64,000 nt of DNA, taken from contig NC_015437.1 in the NCBI RefSeq assembly GCF_000208405.1, forward strand, positions 1,419,501-1,483,500, in the 5' to 3' direction. Positions 27,760-39,261 of this stretch are shown in pieces. This DNA is from Selenomonas sputigena ATCC 35185. Its GTDB lineage: Bacteria; Bacillota; Negativicutes; Selenomonadales; Selenomonadaceae. The notes beneath the pieces were generated by a model. It was not told the origin of the DNA and made no database searches. It saw only the letters and a program-made list of their open reading frames with translations. Position 1 is the first letter of the stretch, and every line of letters begins with the position of its first letter. The position numbers and the translations under genes were made by a program.

Positions 27760-27835
27760 CCATCTGGAAAAAATCCGAGATTCCTGTATAATGGTTATAC
27801 TGCTGAATGAACTTTGACGCATGAGGTGTTTTGTG

Positions 27836-28816
27836 ATGGATGTACGCGACGATTTCCTGCTCGCCAAGAACCAGAAGGTCGAGCAGAACGAGAAACTTTC
27901 CGCCAAGAGCAAGCGGCGTATGCAGAAGAGCAAATCGTTCAATACGATCAAATCTTACGCGAGCGATTGGAACGATTTTGCCGACTGGTGCGAGCATCAC
28001 CAGATTGCTTCCCTGCCCGCAGAACCGGAGACCATCGTCAACTATATCAACGACCTCGCAGACAATGCGAAGGCGAACACGGTCTCGCGCCGCGTCACCG
28101 CCATCTCAGAGAACCACATCGCCGCCGGCTACAAGCGCGACAATCCCGCCCACTCAGGACTTGTGCGAAACGCCATGTCCGCCATCCGCAGGGAGAAGGG
28201 AACGTTCCAGCACGGCAAGGCGCCGATCCTCTTGGAGACGCTCTATTTGATCGCCGACGGCTTCGGCACGGACGAGGCCTCGATTCGTGACAAGGCGCTG
28301 CTCCTCCTCGGCTTTGCAGGAGCGTTCCGCCGCTCGGAACTCGTCGCGCTCACGGTCGAGGATGTCAGCTTCTCCGCCGAAGGCATGGTCGTCTTCATCG
28401 GCAAATCGAAGGGCGACCAACTCGGCAAGGGAAGCTATATCGGCATCCCCTATGCGCCCGACAAGGAAATCTGCGCCGTGCGTGCGCTCCGCGCGTGGCT
28501 CTCCCTCAGCGGCATCAAGAAAGGCCCGCTCTTCCGCCCCTTCAAGCGCAATCGTGAACTGCGCGATACGCAGCTCTCGGACAAGTCCGTGGCGCTCATC
28601 GTCAAGAAGTACATCAAGAAAGCCGGGCTCAGCGAGGAGGATTTTGCCGGGCACAGCCTGCGCCGAGGCTTCGCGACGAGCGCCGCGCAGCACGACGTCG
28701 ATGCTCTGACCATCATGCGCCAGACGCGCCACAAATCAGAGAAGATGGTGCACCGCTACATCGAGCAGGGAAACATCTTCAAGGACAATCCACTCGCACG
28801 CATGTACGGCAAATAA
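27836..28816 (+). CDS. Tyrosine recombinase (phage-integrase family)
   Basis: This 326-residue protein has a SAM-like core-binding domain (about 35-110) and the catalytic domain with all active-site residues: Arg165 in AFRRSELVAL, Lys near 190, His273/Arg276 in GHSLRRG, His299 in TRHKS and nucleophile Tyr308 in VHRYIE. It resembles XerC/D-sized recombinases but I cannot assign it to the dif system. No phage or transposon genes are near and the prophage of this window is 30 kb away. Its stop codon lies inside a perfect 45-bp palindrome. It could be a solitary chromosomal recombinase, a remnant of a mobile element, or a phase-variation invertase. Confidence 0.88.
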   Translation: MDVRDDFLLAKNQKVEQNEKLSAKSKRRMQKSKSFNTIKSYASDWNDFADWCEHHQIASLPAEPETIVNYINDLADNAKANTVSRRVTAISENHIAAGYKRDNPAHSGLVRNAMSAIRREKGTFQHGKAPILLETLYLIADGFGTDEASIRDKALLLLGFAGAFRRSELVALTVEDVSFSAEGMVVFIGKSKGDQLGKGSYIGIPYAPDKEICAVRALRAWLSLSGIKKGPLFRPFKRNRELRDTQLSDKSVALIVKKYIKKAGLSEEDFAGHSLRRGFATSAAQHDVDALTIMRQTRHKSEKMVHRYIEQGNIFKDNPLARMYGK

Positions 28817-28855
28817 GGAGGAGGATATGCCTCAGGCATATCCTCCTCCTTATTT
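28811..28855. terminator. Perfect 45-bp palindrome at the recombinase stop codon
   Basis: Two 22-base arms (first arm begins AAATAAGGAGGAGGATATGC) surround a single base. It includes the recombinase TAA and would fold into a very stable hairpin in RNA from either strand. It probably ends transcription from both sides (recombinase on plus, HD-GYP on minus), but there is no long T-tract beyond TTATTT. Confidence 0.7.
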
Positions 28856-28894: not shown

Positions 28895-29956
28895 TTATTT
28901 CGGATTGTACTCGATAATCTTGATATTCTTGTGCTCATTCAAATCGACGACCTGATCCTGCGTGATGCGAATGAGCGGATGCGCCGCAAAGTCCTCGGGA
29001 TAGCCGACGAGGATGCCTTGGAGACCGTTGCTCAAGGTGACGGTCGAGCCGAGGAACACATGCTTGATGTTGTTGAGGAACGGCATGCAGACAGCAGGAT
29101 CGAGCTTGCTGAACATGTCCTCGGAAATCTGCGCGATGGCACTGAACGGCGTCTGCTTCACATAACCTTCGCGCTCCGTCGTGATGTTGTCGTAGATGTC
29201 CGCGACGGCGATGATGCGCGCATACTCATGGATGTCCTTGCCCGTGAGTCCCGATGGGAAGCCCGATCCGTCCATGCGCTCGTGATGCTGCAAGGCTGCG
29301 AGACGCACGCCCTCAGAAACGTCCTTGTTGGCACTGAGGATATTGAAACCGTCGCGCGCATGATTGCGGTATGCTTCAAGATCTTCGCCCTTGAGCGTCT
29401 GGATGTTCTTTTCCAAGAGACGCTCCGTAAACTTCGTCTTGCCGATGTCGTGCATGAAGCCCGCCATGATGATGTCATGCGTCTTCTTCTGCGGAATGCG
29501 CATCCACTTGGCGATGACGCCCGCGAGGATGGAGACGCGCAGCGAATGATTGTAGACGTCGCTCGCGAGGTGGTTGAGTTCATACAAATAGTCGATGGCG
29601 CCGCTCTGCTTCGACATGGGTGCGAGATCTCGCTGCACCATCGCCGTCGTACGCTCGACGGGCACCTCGTTGTCCTTGGCGACGGAGCTGAAGATGTCCT
29701 GCGCTTCGGAGACGACTTCCTTATATTCAGCGACGAAAGCATGGCTGCGCGTCAGCGGCTCGCCGACGACAGGCGTCGTCGTCAGTTCGAAGTCGTCCTT
29801 GACATAGACGGCCGGTATATTCAAGAATCCCAAACGCGTGATATGCGGCTTCGTCAGAACAGTGTTCTCCGAGAGCACGACAATCATGTTGTCGTTGACG
29901 ATGGTGCGCGCCAAGGTCATTCCAGGATGCAGATCCTCGATGGATACGGCTTTCAA
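28895..29956 (-). CDS. HD-GYP domain protein (cyclic-di-GMP phosphodiesterase)
   Basis: The protein (353 residues from the TTG at 29956, which has AAGGAGGAG upstream) has an N-terminal domain with SIEDLHPGMTLARTIVNDN and a C-terminal HD-GYP domain: the HD pair in FMHDIGKTKFTERLL and the HHERMDGSGFPSG motif (HHE-x-x-DG-x-GYP with Phe for Tyr), plus VADIYDNIT. Such enzymes hydrolyse c-di-GMP to GMP with a di- or tri-iron centre. An ATG at 30031 with AGAGGAAG upstream is an alternative start that adds 25 residues. It lies next to the HPt-like gene and TrmO on the same strand. Confidence 0.87.
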   Translation of the reverse strand: MKAVSIEDLHPGMTLARTIVNDNMIVVLSENTVLTKPHITRLGFLNIPAVYVKDDFELTTTPVVGEPLTRSHAFVAEYKEVVSEAQDIFSSVAKDNEVPVERTTAMVQRDLAPMSKQSGAIDYLYELNHLASDVYNHSLRVSILAGVIAKWMRIPQKKTHDIIMAGFMHDIGKTKFTERLLEKNIQTLKGEDLEAYRNHARDGFNILSANKDVSEGVRLAALQHHERMDGSGFPSGLTGKDIHEYARIIAVADIYDNITTEREGYVKQTPFSAIAQISEDMFSKLDPAVCMPFLNNIKHVFLGSTVTLSNGLQGILVGYPEDFAAHPLIRITQDQVVDLNEHKNIKIIEYNPK

Positions 29957-30122
29957 AGCAAACTCCTCCTTTGGGAAACGGCATATATCATAATCGCGTT
30001 TCTTCCGTACATAAATCGATTCGGAATCCATCCGAATACTTCCTCTATGCTTAATTCTCTACAAAAGTCGGAAATCCTTTATCGTACTGGGAAATTCTTT
30101 CCTTTTTGTAAGAAACGACTTT

Positions 30123-30473
30123 TTACCCATTCTGCCGAATCGCGTCGCATACCTTTTCGTGGATTTCACGCACCTCGTAAATCAAAGGCCGAATTTTCTC
30201 CACCTCCTTGCCCGAGCGAAGCTCTTTGCCGATCGCATCCGCCAGCGCCGAGAGTTTGACGAGACTGAGATTCGCTGCCGTCCCTTTCAACGTATCGATG
30301 GCCTTCTCCGCCATGGAGATGTCGCCCATTTCGATACCTGCCCAGAATTCCTGAAACGATCCATCATAGAGGAACTTCGACAGGAATTCAAGGTAAAGCG
30401 CCTCGTTTCCCATGAAACGCTCCAAACCTTTGGCATAGTCGATGCCCGCCGCCCTGCACGTCTCTTCTTTCAA
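30123..30473 (-). CDS. HPt-like domain protein lacking the phosphorylatable histidine
   Basis: The 116-residue protein, starting with a TTG behind AAAGGAGG, is a lone HPt-type four-helix domain: FLSKFLYDGSFQEFWAGIEMGD, then AEKAIDTLKGTAANLSL, then a long helix (LADAIGKELRSG). In HPt domains the second segment reads H-x-LKG-x-A-x-x-L-G; here Asp60 takes the place of the His, and Ser replaces the Gly. So it cannot act as a classic phosphorelay carrier and may instead bind a response regulator or sensor kinase. It lies next to an HD-GYP gene, which suggests a role in c-di-GMP signalling (inference). Confidence 0.72.
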   Translation of the reverse strand: MKEETCRAAGIDYAKGLERFMGNEALYLEFLSKFLYDGSFQEFWAGIEMGDISMAEKAIDTLKGTAANLSLVKLSALADAIGKELRSGKEVEKIRPLIYEVREIHEKVCDAIRQNG

Positions 30474-30525
30474 GGAACATCCTCCTTTCGCCAACGCTTC
30501 CAATCAACCATTCCGCGCGTCCAAG

Positions 30526-30942
30526 TCACATGCCGCCGCTTTTGCCGCTTGCCAGACCAACCGCATCGACGTACGGCTTGATGTCGATGACAGCGCTGCC
30601 GTCCAAGGCGTCGAGATGGCGCACGAAGAGCCGCCCTTCCTCGCGCCGCAGAAGTTTCACGGCGCAGAGCGACAGGGGATTCGGGCGATGCGGCGAGCGA
30701 CATGCGAAGACGCCGCAGGAACGCGTGCCGCTCGGCGGCGTCGTCACGAGACGGTCGCGCTCGGCGAGGTGCGCCCAGTAGAGCACCGTGAGCCATTCGC
30801 TCTCTTCGACATGCTCCAAGGCGGGCGCATACGCCTCGTCGATTTCGATGACAGACTCCTCCTCGCTGAAAAATCCCTGGCGCGGTATCTGCTGCAAACT
30901 CTTGTAGGGACTGTGCACCACGCCTATGCGCTGCAATTCCAT
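30526..30942 (-). CDS. trmO: tRNA (t6A37-N6)-methyltransferase TrmO
   Basis: This 138-residue protein has the TsaA/TrmO beta-barrel motifs: IGVVHSPYKSLQQIPRQG, GVFACRSPHRPNPLSLCAVKL and LDGSAVIDIKPYVD. TrmO methylates N6-threonylcarbamoyladenosine at position 37 of tRNA-Thr(GGU). The C-terminus is short: it lacks the extra domain seen in E. coli. It follows ileS by 19 bases and is probably in the same transcript. Confidence 0.92.
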   Translation of the reverse strand: MELQRIGVVHSPYKSLQQIPRQGFFSEEESVIEIDEAYAPALEHVEESEWLTVLYWAHLAERDRLVTTPPSGTRSCGVFACRSPHRPNPLSLCAVKLLRREEGRLFVRHLDALDGSAVIDIKPYVDAVGLASGKSGGM

Positions 30943-30961: not shown

Positions 30962-33900
30962 TCACTCGACCTTGAGCGTCAATTTCTCGCCGTTGATGTT
31001 CCACGCCTTGCCTTCCGGCTCCTTTTCATAGGAGATTGCGTCGGCGAGCGTGATGCGCTTGATGTACTCCTCGTTCTTCGCCATGAGCGCTGCAATCTTC
31101 TCGTTGCCTCCCGCCGTGATCTTGATGTGGTCGGTGACTTCGAAGCCGTTCTCCTTGCGCATCGTCTGCACCTTGCTGACGATCTCACGCACGAAGCCCT
31201 CCTCGATGAGCGCAGGGCTCAAGGTCGTCTCCAGGGCAATCGTGACTGCGCCGTAGCGCTCCGTGACGAAGCCTTCCGTCTGCGCCATCGACACCTCGAC
31301 GTCTTCGGCCTCCAGCGTGACTTCACCCGAAGGAAGCGCGAGCTTCAGCTTGCCCGTGCGGTCAAGCTCGTCCTTCGCCTCGTGTCCGTTGACCTTTGAA
31401 AGAGCCGCCTTGACCTCGCCGATCCTCTTGCCGACCTTCGGTCCCAAGATCTTGAACTGCGGTTTGAAGCTGTAGCTCAGGAACTCTTCCATGTCGTCCT
31501 TGAAGACGACTTCCTTGACGTTCAGCTCACTCTCGACAATCTCGCGGAAGAAATCGTCGAGCGCGTGCGCCGCCTTGACGAACATCCTGCCGATGGGCTG
31601 GCGATTCTTGATGTTTGCAGTGTTTCGCGCTGCACGCCCCAAGACGACGATCTCAAGGACGATCTCCATGTTGTCTTCCAGCGATGCGTCGATATACTCT
31701 TCATGCACGGCAGGGAAATCGCAAAGATGGATGCTCTCGGGCGCCTCCTTGTCGATGCTGCAGACGATGTTCTGATAAATGGCTTCCGTCATGAAAGGAA
31801 TCATCGGCGCGGCGGCCTTCGCCGTCGTCACGAGTGCCGTGTAGAGCGTCATATAGGCATTGACCTTGTCCTCGCCCTCGCCCTTCGCCCAGAAGCGCTC
31901 GCGGCTGCGGCGCACATACCAGTTGCTCAGTTCATCGACGAAGCTCTGCAGGGCCTTCGCCGCTTCTGTGACCTTGTAAGCGGCGAGATTTTCGTCGACC
32001 GCCTTGACCATCGTGTTGAGGCGCGACAAAATCCACTTGTCCATGACGGCGAGCTTCTCGTAGTCGAGCGCATGATCGAGCGGATTGAAATTGTCGATAT
32101 TGGCATAGAGCACATAGAAGGCATAGGTATTCCACAGCGTGCCCATGAACTTTCGCTGCCCTTCCTGCACGGCGCCGTCGTGGTAGCGGTTCGGCAGCCA
32201 CGGTGCGCTGTTCTCATAGAAATACCAGCGGATCGCATCCGCACCGTGCTTCCTCAGCGCATCCATCGGATCGACGGCGTTGCCCTTCGACTTCGACATC
32301 TTTCGGCCGTTCTCGTCCTGCACATGGCCGAGGACGATGACGTTCTTGTACGGCGCCTTGTGAAAGAGCAGCGTCGAGATGGCGATGAGCGAATAGAACC
32401 AGCCGCGCGTCTGGTCGACCGCCTCGGAGATGAAGTCCGCGGGGAAGCGGCGCTCGAAGATCTCCTTGTTTTCGAACGGATAGTGCCACTGGGCAAAGGG
32501 CATGGAGCCGGAGTCGAACCAGCAGTCGATGACCTCGGGCACGCGGTGCATTTCCTCGCCGCACTCGGTGCAGCGAATCGTCACGGCGTCGACGTAAGGA
32601 CGGTGCAGCTCAAGCTCCTCGGGGCAGTTGTCCGACAGCGACTTCAGCTCCTCGATCGAGCCGATCGAATGCTGATGGCCGCAGCCGCACTCCCATATAT
32701 TGAGCGGCGTACCCCAGTAGCGGTTGCGGCTGATGCCCCAATCCTGCACATGCTCAAGCCAGTCGCCGAAGCGTCCCTTGCCGATGCTCTCAGGGATCCA
32801 GTTGACCGTATCGTTGTTCGCAATGAGTTCGTCGCGCACCGCCGTCATCTTGATGAACCACGACTCGCGCGCGTAGTAGACGAGCGGCGTGTCGCAGCGC
32901 CAGCAATGCGGATAGCTGTGTTCGAAGACGGGCGCCTTGAAGAGAAGTCCCTTCTCTTTCAAGTCCTGCAAGATCAGCGGATCGGCGTCCTTGACGAAGA
33001 CGCCCGGCCAGTCCGTGTCCGCCGTCATCTCGCCCTTTGCGTCAACGAACTGCACGAAGGGCATGTCGTACTTGCGGCACACGCGGTTGTCGTCCTCGCC
33101 GAACGCCGGCGCCGTATGGACGATGCCCGTGCCGTCAGACGTCGTAACATAGTCGTCGCATATAACGAAGAATGCCTTCTTCTTGATTTTTCCTTGCGCA
33201 TACGGATAGAGCGGCTCATAGTCACGATGCTCAAGCTCCTTGCCCTTCATGCGCGCGAGAACCTCGCGCTCGCCCTCGACGCCCTCGAAGACCGCATCGA
33301 CGAGCGCTTCCGCGAGATAGTAGACGGTATCGCCGACGCGCAGCTTCACATAGGTCACGTCGGGGTTGACGCAGAGGCCGAGGTTCGACGGCAGCGTCCA
33401 CGGCGTCGTCGTCCAGGCGAGGAAATACGCGTCCTCCCCCTTCGCCTTGAACTTGACCATGGCGGAGCGCTCTTTGACGTCCTTGTAGCCCTGCGCGACC
33501 TCGTGCGAGGAAAGCGGCGTGCCGCAGCGCGGGCAGTACGGCACGACCTTGTAGCCCTTGTAGAGCAGGCCGCGCTTCCAGATCTCCTTGAGCGCCCACC
33601 ACTCCGACTCGATGAAGTCGTTCTCATAGGTGATGTACGGATGCTCCATATCGGCCCAGAAGCCGACGACGTCGGAGAACTCCTCCCACATGCCCTTGTA
33701 CTTCCAGACGGATTCGCGGCACTTCTTGATGAAAGGCTCCATGCCGTACTTCTCGATCTGATCCTTGCCGTCGAGTCCGAGCGCCTTCTCCACCTCAAGC
33801 TCCACAGGCAGGCCGTGCGTGTCCCATCCCGCTTTTCTAAGGACGCGCTTTCCCTTCATCGACTGGTAGCGAGGCAGCATGTCCTTGATGACGCGCGTCA

Positions 33901-34081
33901 GCACATGACCGATGTGCGGCTTGCCGTTCGCCGTCGGTGGCCCATCGTAGAACGTGAAATTCTCCTTGCCTGCGCGCTGGTCAATCGCCTTCTGGGCGAT
34001 GTCGTGCGATTTCCAGAAGTCTTCGACCTCCTTCTCGCGCTCAACAAAATTCAACGTCGTGTCTACCTTCTTATACAGCAA
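30962..34081 (-). CDS. ileS: Isoleucine-tRNA ligase, long (IleS2-like) type
   Basis: The 1039-residue enzyme is a class Ia synthetase with HIGH motif in PTANGKPHIGH, the editing (CP1) domain with CPRCGTPLSSHEVAQGY and the KMSKS loop (KMSKSKGNAVDP). It has no C-terminal zinc-finger of the ordinary bacterial type, and its length and motifs (DTHGLPVELEVEKALGLDGK) fit the IleS2 group, which includes eukaryotic enzymes and mupirocin-resistant bacterial forms. The start is a TTG at 34081 with AGGAGG seven bases upstream. A terminator hairpin lies directly before the ribosome site. Confidence 0.95.
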   Translation of the reverse strand: MLYKKVDTTLNFVEREKEVEDFWKSHDIAQKAIDQRAGKENFTFYDGPPTANGKPHIGHVLTRVIKDMLPRYQSMKGKRVLRKAGWDTHGLPVELEVEKALGLDGKDQIEKYGMEPFIKKCRESVWKYKGMWEEFSDVVGFWADMEHPYITYENDFIESEWWALKEIWKRGLLYKGYKVVPYCPRCGTPLSSHEVAQGYKDVKERSAMVKFKAKGEDAYFLAWTTTPWTLPSNLGLCVNPDVTYVKLRVGDTVYYLAEALVDAVFEGVEGEREVLARMKGKELEHRDYEPLYPYAQGKIKKKAFFVICDDYVTTSDGTGIVHTAPAFGEDDNRVCRKYDMPFVQFVDAKGEMTADTDWPGVFVKDADPLILQDLKEKGLLFKAPVFEHSYPHCWRCDTPLVYYARESWFIKMTAVRDELIANNDTVNWIPESIGKGRFGDWLEHVQDWGISRNRYWGTPLNIWECGCGHQHSIGSIEELKSLSDNCPEELELHRPYVDAVTIRCTECGEEMHRVPEVIDCWFDSGSMPFAQWHYPFENKEIFERRFPADFISEAVDQTRGWFYSLIAISTLLFHKAPYKNVIVLGHVQDENGRKMSKSKGNAVDPMDALRKHGADAIRWYFYENSAPWLPNRYHDGAVQEGQRKFMGTLWNTYAFYVLYANIDNFNPLDHALDYEKLAVMDKWILSRLNTMVKAVDENLAAYKVTEAAKALQSFVDELSNWYVRRSRERFWAKGEGEDKVNAYMTLYTALVTTAKAAAPMIPFMTEAIYQNIVCSIDKEAPESIHLCDFPAVHEEYIDASLEDNMEIVLEIVVLGRAARNTANIKNRQPIGRMFVKAAHALDDFFREIVESELNVKEVVFKDDMEEFLSYSFKPQFKILGPKVGKRIGEVKAALSKVNGHEAKDELDRTGKLKLALPSGEVTLEAEDVEVSMAQTEGFVTERYGAVTIALETTLSPALIEEGFVREIVSKVQTMRKENGFEVTDHIKITAGGNEKIAALMAKNEEYIKRITLADAISYEKEPEGKAWNINGEKLTLKVE

Positions 34082-34380: not shown

Positions 34381-37300
34381 TTAGAAGCGATAGGTGAGCT
34401 GCACCCTTGCGTAGTCGCCGAGGCTGAAGTGCTCGGGGCCGTAGAGGGTGTCGCGTGCACCGATTCCTTTGGCGCCGAAGGTGTAGAAGGCTTCGACGAG
34501 GAGGTTTTCCATCGGCACATAGCCCGCGCCGACGGTGAAGCTCTTGATGCCGTCGAGGTAGCGGTCGGGCAGCGCTTCCGTGCCGTTGCCGCCGAAGAAG
34601 GAGCCGTGCTCGAAGCGCTTGTAGTCGATGAATGCATTCCACGAGTGCGGCACTTTCGTATCGGCTTTGCCGAGATCGAGCCGCATGACCCAGAATCTCG
34701 GTGCAGAGCCGGTTTCCCTGCCCTTGATCGCGAAGTCGGATGTGCCGCTCTTGTGCTCATAGCGCGTGTGGCCGTTCATGTACTTGCCAAAGTCGGTCGT
34801 ATTCACGCCGTAGTCGAAGGATAGCGCGGCATTCTTCGAGAGCTGCCACTTCGCGCCGACACCGACGACATTCGCGAGCGTGTCGAAGGTGCTGACATCA
34901 TTTCCCGTGCCGTTCGCCGCGAGGAAGCGATGCGAGTCATTGCCGACCGAGCGCAGATACCAAGCGGCGACGCCGAGATTTGGCGAGAGTTCGTGACGTG
35001 CCTGCACATAGAACGCCTGCTTGAGCGCAGGGATCTGGTCGCGCTCAAGTATCGTGCCAACTTGCAGTACAAAATAGCCCGCGCGTTTCAGCAGATTAAG
35101 CGGCAGAGCGCTCTTGTCCTCCGGACCCCAATAATAATCATCAATTAGATAGTCGATGATCGTTTGACCGAGATGCGATATACCCCTTTTATTGCCTGCC
35201 GGAATCTTCCCGTTTAATGTAAATCCGCTATCGGGGTCATCCGGATTGCGTTTCAACGACTGCACCCCGTGGTAAGCGCTTTTATCCCAAGAAGAACGAA
35301 TGGTGCGCTCTTTTGCCTCATCCTTCGTCATCGATCTGAAATCTCCGGGTTGCAAATCACTCATCTTCAAATTGTAGCCAAGGATCGGCTTCTTTCCGTG
35401 ATATGTTCCATAGCCGTAGAACTCATAGGTCAGATTATAAACCCCGTCCGGATGACCGTCGATATTATCAAGCTTCTCCACCCGCGTCCGCGTCGTCTCC
35501 AGATTTGCCTCTGCCGACTCCCACGCTTTACGGGTGACATCCTCCATCTTCTCGCGATTGAATCTGTCCTGATAAGAAAGGCTTGCCCTCGGATGCAGCT
35601 TCTTCAACTGCGGACTTTCTTCCTGTGAAAGATATGTCCCGACGACGTTGCCATGTTTGTCCCTCACGGTCACCTTGTACCATGCGAAGTCATCGTGCTG
35701 GATTCTCCCTTTCTCAGACAACCGATCCATCAATTTCTGATATGCTTTGGGATTATCCTGTTTGACAACATTCAGATACTCGTCAAGAATCTGCTTTTGC
35801 TCTGCCAAACTCTGCGCCTTGACGAGCCGTTGATACAGTCCGTCAAAGCCCGGGGTATCCTTAATGAGCGTGCTGTAGTTCGGATAATACGGAACGGCGT
35901 CCGTCGTACGGCTGTTGATCGCGGTCGCTTTATAGCCCAGCCATTCTTCCTTAGTCACGCCGCGCACGAAGCTCTGACGCGTCGCGTGCGTATAGGCGGA
36001 GTCTGTGACGCCTGTCGAGTGCCGGAAGTCGCCGTAGCCGAGACGCACCTGCGTATGGGCGCCCGTCCATACGGCGCGTCCGCCGTCGTACTCTTTGCCG
36101 AAGTAGTAGCCTGTGACGCCCATCGGCTCCGTCATGCGGCCAAGCGAGAAGTCCCAGTCGTTCGCATGTACGGTGAGGTTCGCCTCGTCAAGGCGCACAT
36201 GGTTGAGTCCACGGCTTTTGGCGACATCGGTATCGGTGCCGACACCCTCTGCGCCCGAAGCGCTTCCCAAAATAGTGAGGTTCGTGTTCGCATCGATCCT
36301 CGCATCCACGCCAACGCGCAGCCACTGCTCGAAGCCGTGCTCAGCTTTTTCGAGGTAATTTTTATACGCGCCGTCGCTTACGCTCGCTGTGGTCGTGACA
36401 CGCGCTTCAGACGGCTTTTCCTTGCCTGTAAAGGCGTTCCAACGCCAGCGATAATCGCCGATGACACGCACGCCCTTTTCCTTCGTCGTATCGAACGGCT
36501 TTTGGATGAACCATGCATCTTCGGGCAGAAGATGCACTTCTTCCTTCTTGAAGCGCCCGCCCGCCCCCGTGCTCGCATCGGGGCCGAACTTCAAGTTCAC
36601 GCCAATGCGGTACGTGCGCTCTTGAAAGGCGCGGTCGTCGTCGCGATGGTTGAAGATATTGTCGACGCCGATATAGGCGCTCGCGTCCTTGCCGAAGTCT
36701 TTTTGCAGGATGAAGTTCCAGATACCGAAAGTCTTTTTCTCGTACGTCTGCTTGCCGCCCTCGGCGAAGTTATAATGCCACTTTTTTGCCACGCCGTCCC
36801 AGTCGTAATAGTTGCCGTTGTTCGCAACACTGTTGCTGTCTAGCATGTTGACATAATAGTTCCCCCAGAGCGTCGCACGCCAGCCTTGGTTCTCGTAGGT
36901 CACGCCAAGGTCGATCTTGTGCTGCGGCCGATCGAGCAAACGATCCGGCATGTTCGGATCGCTCTTGTTGATGGCATGAAGATAGGTATAGCCGAGCTTC
37001 GCCGACCAATGCTTGTCAAAGCGATGGTTATACTCTGCTTCAAGACCTGTGATCTCCGCTTTGCCGATGTTCTTGAAGCTGTAAATCATATCGGGCGGCA
37101 TGAGCCATCTGGCATCAGCGGAAATTTCCGGATGGAAATCCATCAGATAGCCGGTGAAGTAAGTCGTCATATAGTTGTCGATGCGATTGTGGAAAGCATT
37201 GATACGGTAGCTGTCCCTGCCATCCTTGCTTTCGCCCTCATAGCCAAGATCGAAATTGAGGGACTTCTCGGGCTTCAAGTTCGGATTGCCGACAAAATAG

Positions 37301-39261
37301 TAGCCAAGGCGTGCGCGTTCCAGTCCCATCGGCGAGCCTGCATACATCTCCCAGTTGTAGTAAAGCTCCCCCATGCCCGGCTCGGTATAGCCCGTGCCGA
37401 GGTTCGCCTTGAAGCGCTGGTTCGCCTTGCCGCCGATGTTGTGCGTCATGCCGATATTGAACGTCGCATGTGTGCCGAAAAGGCTGCTGTGATCGACGCG
37501 CAGAATTGGCGAGAGCAAAGTATTCCGATTGACCTGCCATGCGTCCTGCAAAAACACATATTGCTTCTTGATCTCCACACTGCCAATCGTCAATCGGTTC
37601 TGCCGCGCATCAAATTCCTCATTGAACGCTTTTCCGTTCCAAAGCATCGCATGTCCAAACATTTTACGATCATAATTGGCAAATTCCTGATCATAGTAGT
37701 GATTGATTGCCGAAGTCGGCGTATCAATATGAGTCAGATCATGGTTGCGAGCATCATCAAGCAGCTGCTGACCGAACGCCATAAGCCGCGCCATAACATC
37801 CGGCGGCGCCGGATTCCAGTCTTTATCATAGCCCTGAGAGCCATATTTCAAATAGTCCTGATACGTATAGATTGGCTCCAGTGAGCGTCCGGCAGCATCC
37901 TTATGCCCATACCACTCGTATTCATTATCGTACTTAGGCACTCCCGCTTCATTTCGCGTCATCGCATAGTCGTGCACGCGCGAAGATGGCTCCCCCGCGC
38001 CGCCTCTCGTATAAAGGTTCTTATCGTAATCCCACGGATCGATCATGCGCGTATGGCTGTTCGGTGCGTTTTTGATGCGGCTGCCCTCGCCTTTCTCCTG
38101 CGTGTAGCCAATGCCGTAGGTCAGCAGATGATCGCGATGGATCTGGGTGTTTGCCGATGCCTTGAGGCTCCATTGCTGATGCATGAGGTCGTCGATATAG
38201 TTGAGCGTGTTCTTGCCTTCATAGGGAGAATTGATATAGTCCGAGGTCAGCGTCGTGTCGTCCTCGTTCATCTTTGCATAGTCGAGAGAGACATTCCAAT
38301 CCGAATTGCCGCCGCGCCCCGCATACGAGAGGCGATATGTGCTGCGGTCAAGTTCGCGTTTGAATTGCTGCAAACCTTCCCCCCCAGAGTTGGAGCGCTT
38401 GACGAAGCGCTCCATATCCTCTGCCGTATGATCAACATTCAAGGAGAGACTATGATTCTTATCGAAATCGTAGGATGCGACAAGTCCGATATTCTTGATG
38501 TCGCCATAGTAGCGCAGCGAGTTTCGCACACGGCTTTCCTCGTCTTCATAAGAGTCGCCGCCCTTGATGAGCCCGCCAAAGGTCTCCGTGCTGTAAATCG
38601 GCATGACGTCGCGCTTGCCGCCGTAGGCTGCGACGCGCAGCTTGCCAATGTCGCCCGAGTCGGCGCGCAGGAAGAAGTTCGTATAGGGGATCTTCGAGTC
38701 GCCCTTGACGCGCCTGCCTTCGAGGTTGACCTGCATGCCCGCACGCTTCGCCGCCGCCTTCGTGATGACGTTGACGACGCCGCCGATGGCGTCGGCGCCG
38801 TACTTCGCGCTCGCCGCCCCGCGGATGATCTCGATGCGCTCGACGTTCTCCGTGCCGAGCCGCTGCAGCTCGTCGCCCGCGCCCGTGTACTTGGCGAAGT
38901 CGCCCATGACGGGCTGCCCGTCGACGAGGATCAAGGTATGGCGCGGCTCCGCGCCGCGAATCGAGAGCGTGACGCGCCCCATGGCGTCGACGCTGCGCGT
39001 CATGCCTGTCTCGTCGAAGATGATGTCTTCGACGGACTTCGCCTGCTTCTTCTCGATGTCCTCTTTCGTGATGATCGTCGTAGACTGCGACTCGTACTTC
39101 GCATCCTCTTTCGCGGCGTTCGCTTCGACGTCAACGGATCCCGTCTGAACGTCTACCCCCCCCGCACTTTCATGCGCCTGTGCCGTACAAAGAGGCAGCA
39201 TGAGATGGAGCGCGACAGCGAACGCCAACGCGTTCTTTCTCCGAACGGTGATTTCTTTCAC
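34381..39261 (-). CDS. TonB-dependent receptor fused to a second beta-barrel (1626 residues)
   Basis: A Sec signal peptide (cleavage after TAQA, near residue 28) precedes a TonB plug domain (about 45-170; TIITKEDIEKKQAKSVEDII, IRGAEPRHTLILVDGQPV, IEIIRGAASAKYGADAIGG). A first barrel then ends near residue 892 with RTYRIGVNLKFG, which looks like a natural receptor C-terminus. The frame continues without a stop through a short linker into about 700 more residues rich in beta strands (WNAFTGKEKPSEARVTTTAS, DFSLGRMTEPMGVTGYYFG) and ends with YARVQLTYRF, a terminal aromatic residue typical of outer-membrane barrels. Ordinary receptors have 600-1000 residues. Two large insertions (about 394-557 and 1100-1387) sit in the barrels. 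The substrate is unknown; Fur-like boxes suggest iron or heme. Confidence 0.9.
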   Translation of the reverse strand: MKEITVRRKNALAFAVALHLMLPLCTAQAHESAGGVDVQTGSVDVEANAAKEDAKYESQSTTIITKEDIEKKQAKSVEDIIFDETGMTRSVDAMGRVTLSIRGAEPRHTLILVDGQPVMGDFAKYTGAGDELQRLGTENVERIEIIRGAASAKYGADAIGGVVNVITKAAAKRAGMQVNLEGRRVKGDSKIPYTNFFLRADSGDIGKLRVAAYGGKRDVMPIYSTETFGGLIKGGDSYEDEESRVRNSLRYYGDIKNIGLVASYDFDKNHSLSLNVDHTAEDMERFVKRSNSGGEGLQQFKRELDRSTYRLSYAGRGGNSDWNVSLDYAKMNEDDTTLTSDYINSPYEGKNTLNYIDDLMHQQWSLKASANTQIHRDHLLTYGIGYTQEKGEGSRIKNAPNSHTRMIDPWDYDKNLYTRGGAGEPSSRVHDYAMTRNEAGVPKYDNEYEWYGHKDAAGRSLEPIYTYQDYLKYGSQGYDKDWNPAPPDVMARLMAFGQQLLDDARNHDLTHIDTPTSAINHYYDQEFANYDRKMFGHAMLWNGKAFNEEFDARQNRLTIGSVEIKKQYVFLQDAWQVNRNTLLSPILRVDHSSLFGTHATFNIGMTHNIGGKANQRFKANLGTGYTEPGMGELYYNWEMYAGSPMGLERARLGYYFVGNPNLKPEKSLNFDLGYEGESKDGRDSYRINAFHNRIDNYMTTYFTGYLMDFHPEISADARWLMPPDMIYSFKNIGKAEITGLEAEYNHRFDKHWSAKLGYTYLHAINKSDPNMPDRLLDRPQHKIDLGVTYENQGWRATLWGNYYVNMLDSNSVANNGNYYDWDGVAKKWHYNFAEGGKQTYEKKTFGIWNFILQKDFGKDASAYIGVDNIFNHRDDDRAFQERTYRIGVNLKFGPDASTGAGGRFKKEEVHLLPEDAWFIQKPFDTTKEKGVRVIGDYRWRWNAFTGKEKPSEARVTTTASVSDGAYKNYLEKAEHGFEQWLRVGVDARIDANTNLTILGSASGAEGVGTDTDVAKSRGLNHVRLDEANLTVHANDWDFSLGRMTEPMGVTGYYFGKEYDGGRAVWTGAHTQVRLGYGDFRHSTGVTDSAYTHATRQSFVRGVTKEEWLGYKATAINSRTTDAVPYYPNYSTLIKDTPGFDGLYQRLVKAQSLAEQKQILDEYLNVVKQDNPKAYQKLMDRLSEKGRIQHDDFAWYKVTVRDKHGNVVGTYLSQEESPQLKKLHPRASLSYQDRFNREKMEDVTRKAWESAEANLETTRTRVEKLDNIDGHPDGVYNLTYEFYGYGTYHGKKPILGYNLKMSDLQPGDFRSMTKDEAKERTIRSSWDKSAYHGVQSLKRNPDDPDSGFTLNGKIPAGNKRGISHLGQTIIDYLIDDYYWGPEDKSALPLNLLKRAGYFVLQVGTILERDQIPALKQAFYVQARHELSPNLGVAAWYLRSVGNDSHRFLAANGTGNDVSTFDTLANVVGVGAKWQLSKNAALSFDYGVNTTDFGKYMNGHTRYEHKSGTSDFAIKGRETGSAPRFWVMRLDLGKADTKVPHSWNAFIDYKRFEHGSFFGGNGTEALPDRYLDGIKSFTVGAGYVPMENLLVEAFYTFGAKGIGARDTLYGPEHFSLGDYARVQLTYRF

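Follow-up and report, generated by a model that had tools for sequence, protein, structure and literature searches.

An HPt-fold protein with aspartate at the phosphorylation position, apparently retained by selection, in Selenomonas sputigena

Pseudo-histidine kinases and pseudo-receivers have been studied. As regards the HPt proteins, the literature on pseudo-HPts consisted, among the matches listed by our searches, of plant papers throughout; bacterial phosphorelay papers came up in wider searches, and no title or abstract opening among the matches listed named a bacterial HPt that lacks the His and has a known function. Bacterial Hpt domains lacking the histidine have been counted, 90 of 10,312 (0.9%), in a survey that in its available text names no families or functions (PMC12632262). 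The Arabidopsis protein AHP6, which reads N-Q-L-V-G at the motif, inhibits signalling through HPts according to the accessible part of one paper (PMC4709007). Acidic residues have been engineered at the same site, and the excerpts available report that plant AHP1-H79E binds a non-phosphorylatable ETR1 with a Kd of 3.6 uM, the corresponding value for H79A being 15.4 uM (PMC3166298), and that fungal Ct_HPt-H105E shows no phosphotransfer (PMC11224324). According to similar excerpts, the motif Gly of yeast Ypd1 matters for transfer and not for binding affinity (PMC6341664), HmrB of Caulobacter, in which the HxxKG motif is absent, has been argued to rely on His residues elsewhere (PMC11481889), and Selenomonas sputigena makes c-di-GMP, the signalling by which is unstudied in Selenomonas (PMC13339959).

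The protein considered here belongs to the same class as the domains of the bacterial survey and can be placed in one lineage with its genomic context. The window, that is, the whole stretch of 64,000 nucleotides that was analysed, comes from the S. sputigena ATCC 35185 genome (NC_015437.1, positions 1,419,501 to 1,483,500), a single contig of 2,568,361 bp referred to as G000; one other genome of the genus, G141, was compared with it. A minus-strand ORF of 116 aa at 30123-30473 starts with TTG at 30473 and stops at 30123, and AGGAGG at 30481-30486 (minus strand), 7 nt upstream of the start, is its likely ribosome binding site. Codon 60 (30294-30296, minus strand) is GAT, and the encoded Asp60 sits within AEKAIDTLKGTAANLSL; the motif D-T-L-K-G (30282-30296, minus strand) thereby occupies the H-x-L-K-G position, with Lys63 and Gly64 kept at H+3 and H+4. 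The sole Pfam family matched by the ORF is Hpt (PF01627), at 19.1 bits (E 0.0015) and below the curated gathering cut-off of 24.6, while a His-bearing orthologue from genome G184 reaches 25.9 bits. AlphaFold2, supplied with 26 aligned sequences, modelled a four-helix bundle of the HPt type (pLDDT 94.9, pTM 0.87), and the top five Foldseek matches to the model were all HPt domains or HptB at TM 0.75-0.79 (including 3myf at 0.79, HptB 7c1i at 0.75 and the BarA HPt 3iqt at 0.79, each with prob 1.00), the best E value being 1.3e-3 and none reaching 0.001. The hits of a profile search of PDB sequences were for the most part HPt proteins or P1 domains of CheA. Taken together, these results identify the fold as HPt with Asp at the phosphorylation position, as the preliminary description of this DNA had read it, and the different fold for which that description had allowed is ruled out by the model and its Foldseek matches.

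The protein thus shares its fold (7c1i, TM 0.75), its size, the L-K-G and N-L elements of the motif and an ileS neighbourhood with canonical HPts such as P. aeruginosa HptB and the other Selenomonadaceae orthologues, from which it differs in having no phosphorylatable motif His and in residing in a genome where no hybrid kinase was found. A carrier without His had been expected to be unable to pass phosphate, and the accessible text of the survey agrees in stating that this site "cannot be bypassed" (PMC12632262). AHP6 likewise has no His, and it is altered at the same His and Lys positions that vary in Selenomonadaceae with the Gly kept; the S. sputigena protein, on the other hand, keeps the Lys and carries Asp rather than Asn (AHP6 as described in the part of PMC4709007 available). 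With AHP1-H79E and Ct_HPt-H105E, as reported in the excerpts cited above, it has in common an acidic residue at the phospho-His position; those are engineered Glu substitutions in a plant and a fungal protein, whereas this is a natural bacterial Asp, one methylene shorter.

A search of 189 family genomes gave 43 orthologous loci in 42 genomes at E <= 6.5e-21, all of which were read at position 60. His is present in 38 of them, 28 having H-T-L-K-G, and absent in five (D, D, I, Q, Y). D-T-L-K-G occurs in G000 and G141 alone, which are the two genomes compared of the window's genus; the other His-less orthologues read I-T-L-K-G (G118), Q-T-L-R-G (G139) and Y-T-L-M-G (G124). Since Ile, Gln or Tyr stands at position 60 elsewhere, a negative charge is not generally required there. 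A further ten loci, from G125 and nine from genus g19, have kept the His and lost the Lys, and the same two positions therefore vary repeatedly (D/I/Q/Y at His, I/V/M/R at Lys), with L62, G64 and N68 invariant across 25 aligned sequences. In 27 of 27 distant homologues, mostly Clostridial and collected by scanning GTDB genomes for a DNA pattern, His stands at the aligned position. Outside this genus a degenerate motif occurs in 12 genomes, and in every one of them another HPt, reading an intact H-T-L-K-G, lies nearby; in 7 of the 12 ileS is on the same stretch as the degenerate gene. Beside the orthologue in 15 large intact-motif loci no second HPt was found. The nine g19 loci (L072, L073, L075, L077, L078 and L081-L084), in which Ile or Val replaces the motif Lys and the His is kept, lie near such an intact-motif HPt and are themselves under purifying selection. 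An HPt tree computed with the motif columns excluded, and without one locus and its paralogue (G128b), requires a minimum of three changes between His and non-His and one between intact and degenerate motifs; it does not fix the position of the genus. In the ileS tree the genus groups with G177 of g24 (SH-aLRT 99), and both belong to a larger group (88) that also takes in g5, g25, g26, g20, g13 and g19, g16 being outside the tree's sample.

Between G000 and G141 the gene shows 8 synonymous differences and 1 non-synonymous one (dN 0.0037, dS 0.112), and the binomial probability of a single non-synonymous change among nine under no selection is 4e-5. These rates match those of the neighbouring TrmO-like gene (dN 0.0095, dS 0.087) and HD-GYP gene (dN 0.005, dS 0.164, computed with two codons beyond its currently preferred start). 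For the Lys-less orthologues of other genera dN/dS ranges from 0.01 to 0.16 in 8 pairs (seven g19 pairs and G124/G125), and for the intact-motif paralogue from 0.02 to 0.12 in 7 pairs, several dS values in both sets being near saturation. Judged by these substitution patterns, both the S. sputigena gene and the Lys-less orthologues are maintained by purifying selection, which may act on the rest of the protein rather than on Asp60 itself, Asp being found in just two genomes. The S. sputigena protein accordingly has what marks a pseudo-HPt, namely, an HPt homologue that lacks the His and is retained by selection.

The genome encodes 12 receiver and 9 HATPase-type domains, no two of them in one open frame, and so offers no detectable hybrid kinase of the kind that would donate phosphate to a functional HPt. 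Hybrid kinases recognised elsewhere by matching frame lengths by eye numbered 7 in G146, 2 in G184 and at least 12 each in G118 and G134; by the same inspection there was none in G141 or G177 among the receiver matches listed (8 of 11 and 10 of 11, respectively). When a single HATPase-REC query, taken to represent all hybrid kinases, was run over the 189 genomes, G000 and G141 had the weakest best match of all (4e-12). With the cut between hybrid-positive and hybrid-negative genomes at E 1e-25, chosen after the values were seen and lying in a gap from 3.2e-22 to 2.3e-27, this HPt was matched at E 1e-3 in 135 genomes, 131 of the 157 hybrid-positive versus 4 of the 32 hybrid-negative ones. A profile search assigned a free-standing HPt to three of the 32, namely, G000 and G141, both with Asp, and G163, with His (82% complete); in the same set the G047 match falls in a 900-aa frame and the others are weak, in frames between 472 and 806 aa long, mostly CheA-sized. 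Family genomes without hybrid kinases are therefore usually without a free-standing HPt. In G144 (g21) the HPt orthologue, the hybrid-kinase match and the match to a REC-GGDEF-EAL protein (see below) are absent together. An HPt match in G177 at 760715, which runs antisense inside the HD-GYP gene of that genome, was regarded as spurious.

A second free-standing HPt in G000 was likewise rejected: at E 0.1, a level that a very divergent copy could escape, the profile search gave the protein itself and a 746-aa frame of CheA size. Neither a hybrid kinase nor a second free-standing HPt was thus detected in G000 or G141. AHP6, in the available description, inhibits active HPts of the same cell, and an active free-standing HPt coexisting with the degenerate one is what these two genomes lack and the 12 other degenerate-motif genomes, with their second intact HPt, possess. 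This genus has kept a free-standing HPt, with Asp, despite having no detected hybrid kinase, and the lineage seems to have lost the relay that the HPt served. As the donors are apparently gone, phosphotransfer from a hybrid kinase is unlikely to be the remaining function.

The gene order in this genus is ileS (30962-34081), a TrmO-like gene (30526-30942) and the HPt gene, all on the minus strand, as assigned from ORFs, Pfam and tblastn. Upstream ileS, encoding IleRS, recurs in the relatives, where neighbours identified by tblastn include a CsoR-like gene in 15 of 15 and ileS in 11 of 15 large intact-motif loci. Beyond ileS, a 1626-aa ORF (34381-39261, minus strand) encodes a TonB-dependent receptor with a plug at residues 58-162 and a barrel to about residue 879, followed by some 700 residues in which a weak Porin_5 match at 1520-1554 stands alone; the chain may hold two outer-membrane barrels. 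On the other side lies an HD-GYP/HD_5-type gene (28895-30031, minus strand), whose likely TTG start at 29956 has its own GGAGG. The sequence between the HPt stop and this start measures 166 bp (29957-30122, minus strand) and contains no promoter-like site; the one terminator-like stem near it (30037-30019) is no more than chance gives. Adjoining the HD-GYP gene is a tyrosine recombinase gene of the phage integrase family (27821-28816, plus strand), directly followed by a near-perfect inverted repeat (28818-28853); in G117 (L092) a relative of this recombinase with 62% identity has an HPt-like gene close by.

A better candidate partner than the HD-GYP protein may, by its distribution and domain content, be an orphan REC-GGDEF-EAL protein encoded elsewhere in the genome (L111; G000:C1:2353277-2354257). 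Its EAL domain is matched at 1.1e-70, its GGDEF signature is not intact and its receiver retains the acidic pair, Asp, Thr and Lys, and it is a predicted c-di-GMP phosphodiesterase. A close relative is found in 104 of the 189 family genomes, that is, in 42 of 42 genomes with the HPt orthologue against 62 of 147 others (Fisher P 1e-13, a statistic that ignores shared ancestry), at a cut of E 2.8e-69 set after the matches were seen, the weaker ones spanning the GGDEF part alone. It occurs in the absence of the HPt orthologue in five of the hybrid-poor genomes (G002, G003, G170, G171 and G178), and G144 and G177 gave no match. Since transfer is impossible without the His, an acid can mimic the phosphorylated state, and Lys63 and Gly64 are kept, we propose that the protein is a receiver-binding regulator. 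In the relatives, the orthologue with intact H-T-L-K-G, found in hybrid-kinase-rich genomes, is presumably a normal free-standing carrier of phosphate. The ancestors of this genus would have lost their hybrid kinases and exchanged His60 for Asp (CAT to GAT), in an order that we can only infer, and the protein would have been retained for a second job independent of phosphotransfer. For this job the four-helix face with Lys63 and Gly64, whose preservation fits continued docking, would settle onto a receiver and hold it in one state, with Asp60 perhaps a weak standing mimic of phospho-His. Were the REC-GGDEF-EAL protein the partner, the pseudo-HPt would regulate c-di-GMP indirectly, in whichever direction the docking worked. 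We hold with moderate confidence that it is a retained pseudo-HPt acting by putative receiver binding, with REC-GGDEF-EAL as the likeliest single partner. The more specific proposal, that after the loss of hybrid kinases the last free-standing HPt was frozen in a "charged-like" form by Asp60 and became a regulator acting stoichiometrically on the orphan REC-GGDEF-EAL protein, is in our estimation unlikely to hold in full.

Several other readings have to be set against this one. The pseudo-HPt could bind a different partner, such as a histidine kinase, the chemotaxis proteins CheY/CheV, the 128-aa CheY-like orphan or a conventional response regulator: recognition of receivers is a general property of HPt faces, the genome has among its candidates two single-domain receivers, of 127 and 128 aa, and a CheV-like protein, and those 62 genomes have REC-GGDEF-EAL with no HPt orthologue. 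We consider such a partner rather unlikely, given the presence of REC-GGDEF-EAL in every genome with the HPt orthologue, a co-occurrence computed for it alone among the receivers. The preliminary description had looked instead to the adjacent gene and suggested an adaptor that blocks or scaffolds a regulator, with the HD-GYP phosphodiesterase in mind. The extent of the HPt frame and the HD-GYP-type neighbour were borne out, and the idea of an adaptor or blocker agrees with the purifying selection and with the conservation of the surface that surrounds the absent His; it is the HD-GYP partnership that is not supported. The two genes are adjacent and co-directional in both genomes of the genus, and in many of loci L032-L057, mostly Clostridial, tblastn with the proteins of this genome places the HPt homologue in a cluster with REC-HD-GYP-like and hybrid-kinase-like genes. 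Against this, the HD-GYP protein has no receiver domain, the intervening gap measures 166 bp, and its gene lies beside the HPt gene in 2 of 42 genomes, both of this genus (best places compared by eye; draft contig ends could hide a case). It is matched in 177 of the 189 family genomes at E <= 1e-30 and in 133 at <= 1e-77, of which 91 have no HPt orthologue; the link is weak because close relatives are so widespread and so seldom adjacent. Adaptation to, or inhibition of, this phosphodiesterase is thus improbable.

Decay is a quite unlikely alternative, in which the relay has gone, the gene is a vestige and His60Asp is the first visible step; it would account for the coincidence of His loss with the absence of detectable hybrid kinases, for the failure to find an HPt gene in G177, which groups with this genus on the ileS tree, and for the Pfam score below cut-off. 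The single non-synonymous change among nine, in a comparison of two genomes, speaks against it, as do the intact frame, start signal and conserved core and the purifying selection on Lys-less orthologues elsewhere. That the protein still carries phosphate, through His105 or another residue, seems highly improbable: H105 is its only His and, as none of the 24 other members of one alignment has it, is specific to this lineage within that alignment, though the Clostridial homologue L055 has a His there; yet in the AlphaFold2 model it lies in the last helix, outside the motif helix, and there is no hybrid kinase found to feed a relay. An artefact of sequencing or assembly would need a single base, CAT versus GAT, and the preliminary description had treated His in the orthologues as a possible sign of one or of a recent mutation. 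His is indeed the rule in the orthologues, but the chance of an error is practically negligible, because G141 has the same GAT codon with its eight synonymous and one non-synonymous differences around it.

To conclude, the acidic swap at the carrier site, together with the selection that still preserves the protein, suggests that it now functions by binding a partner and not by passing phosphate. The lineage offers a natural experiment on whether an HPt has a job beyond phosphate carriage, which can be tested with two proteins in a tube. If the phospho-mimetic reading were true, what had been a relay step would now serve c-di-GMP control as a fixed allosteric subunit.
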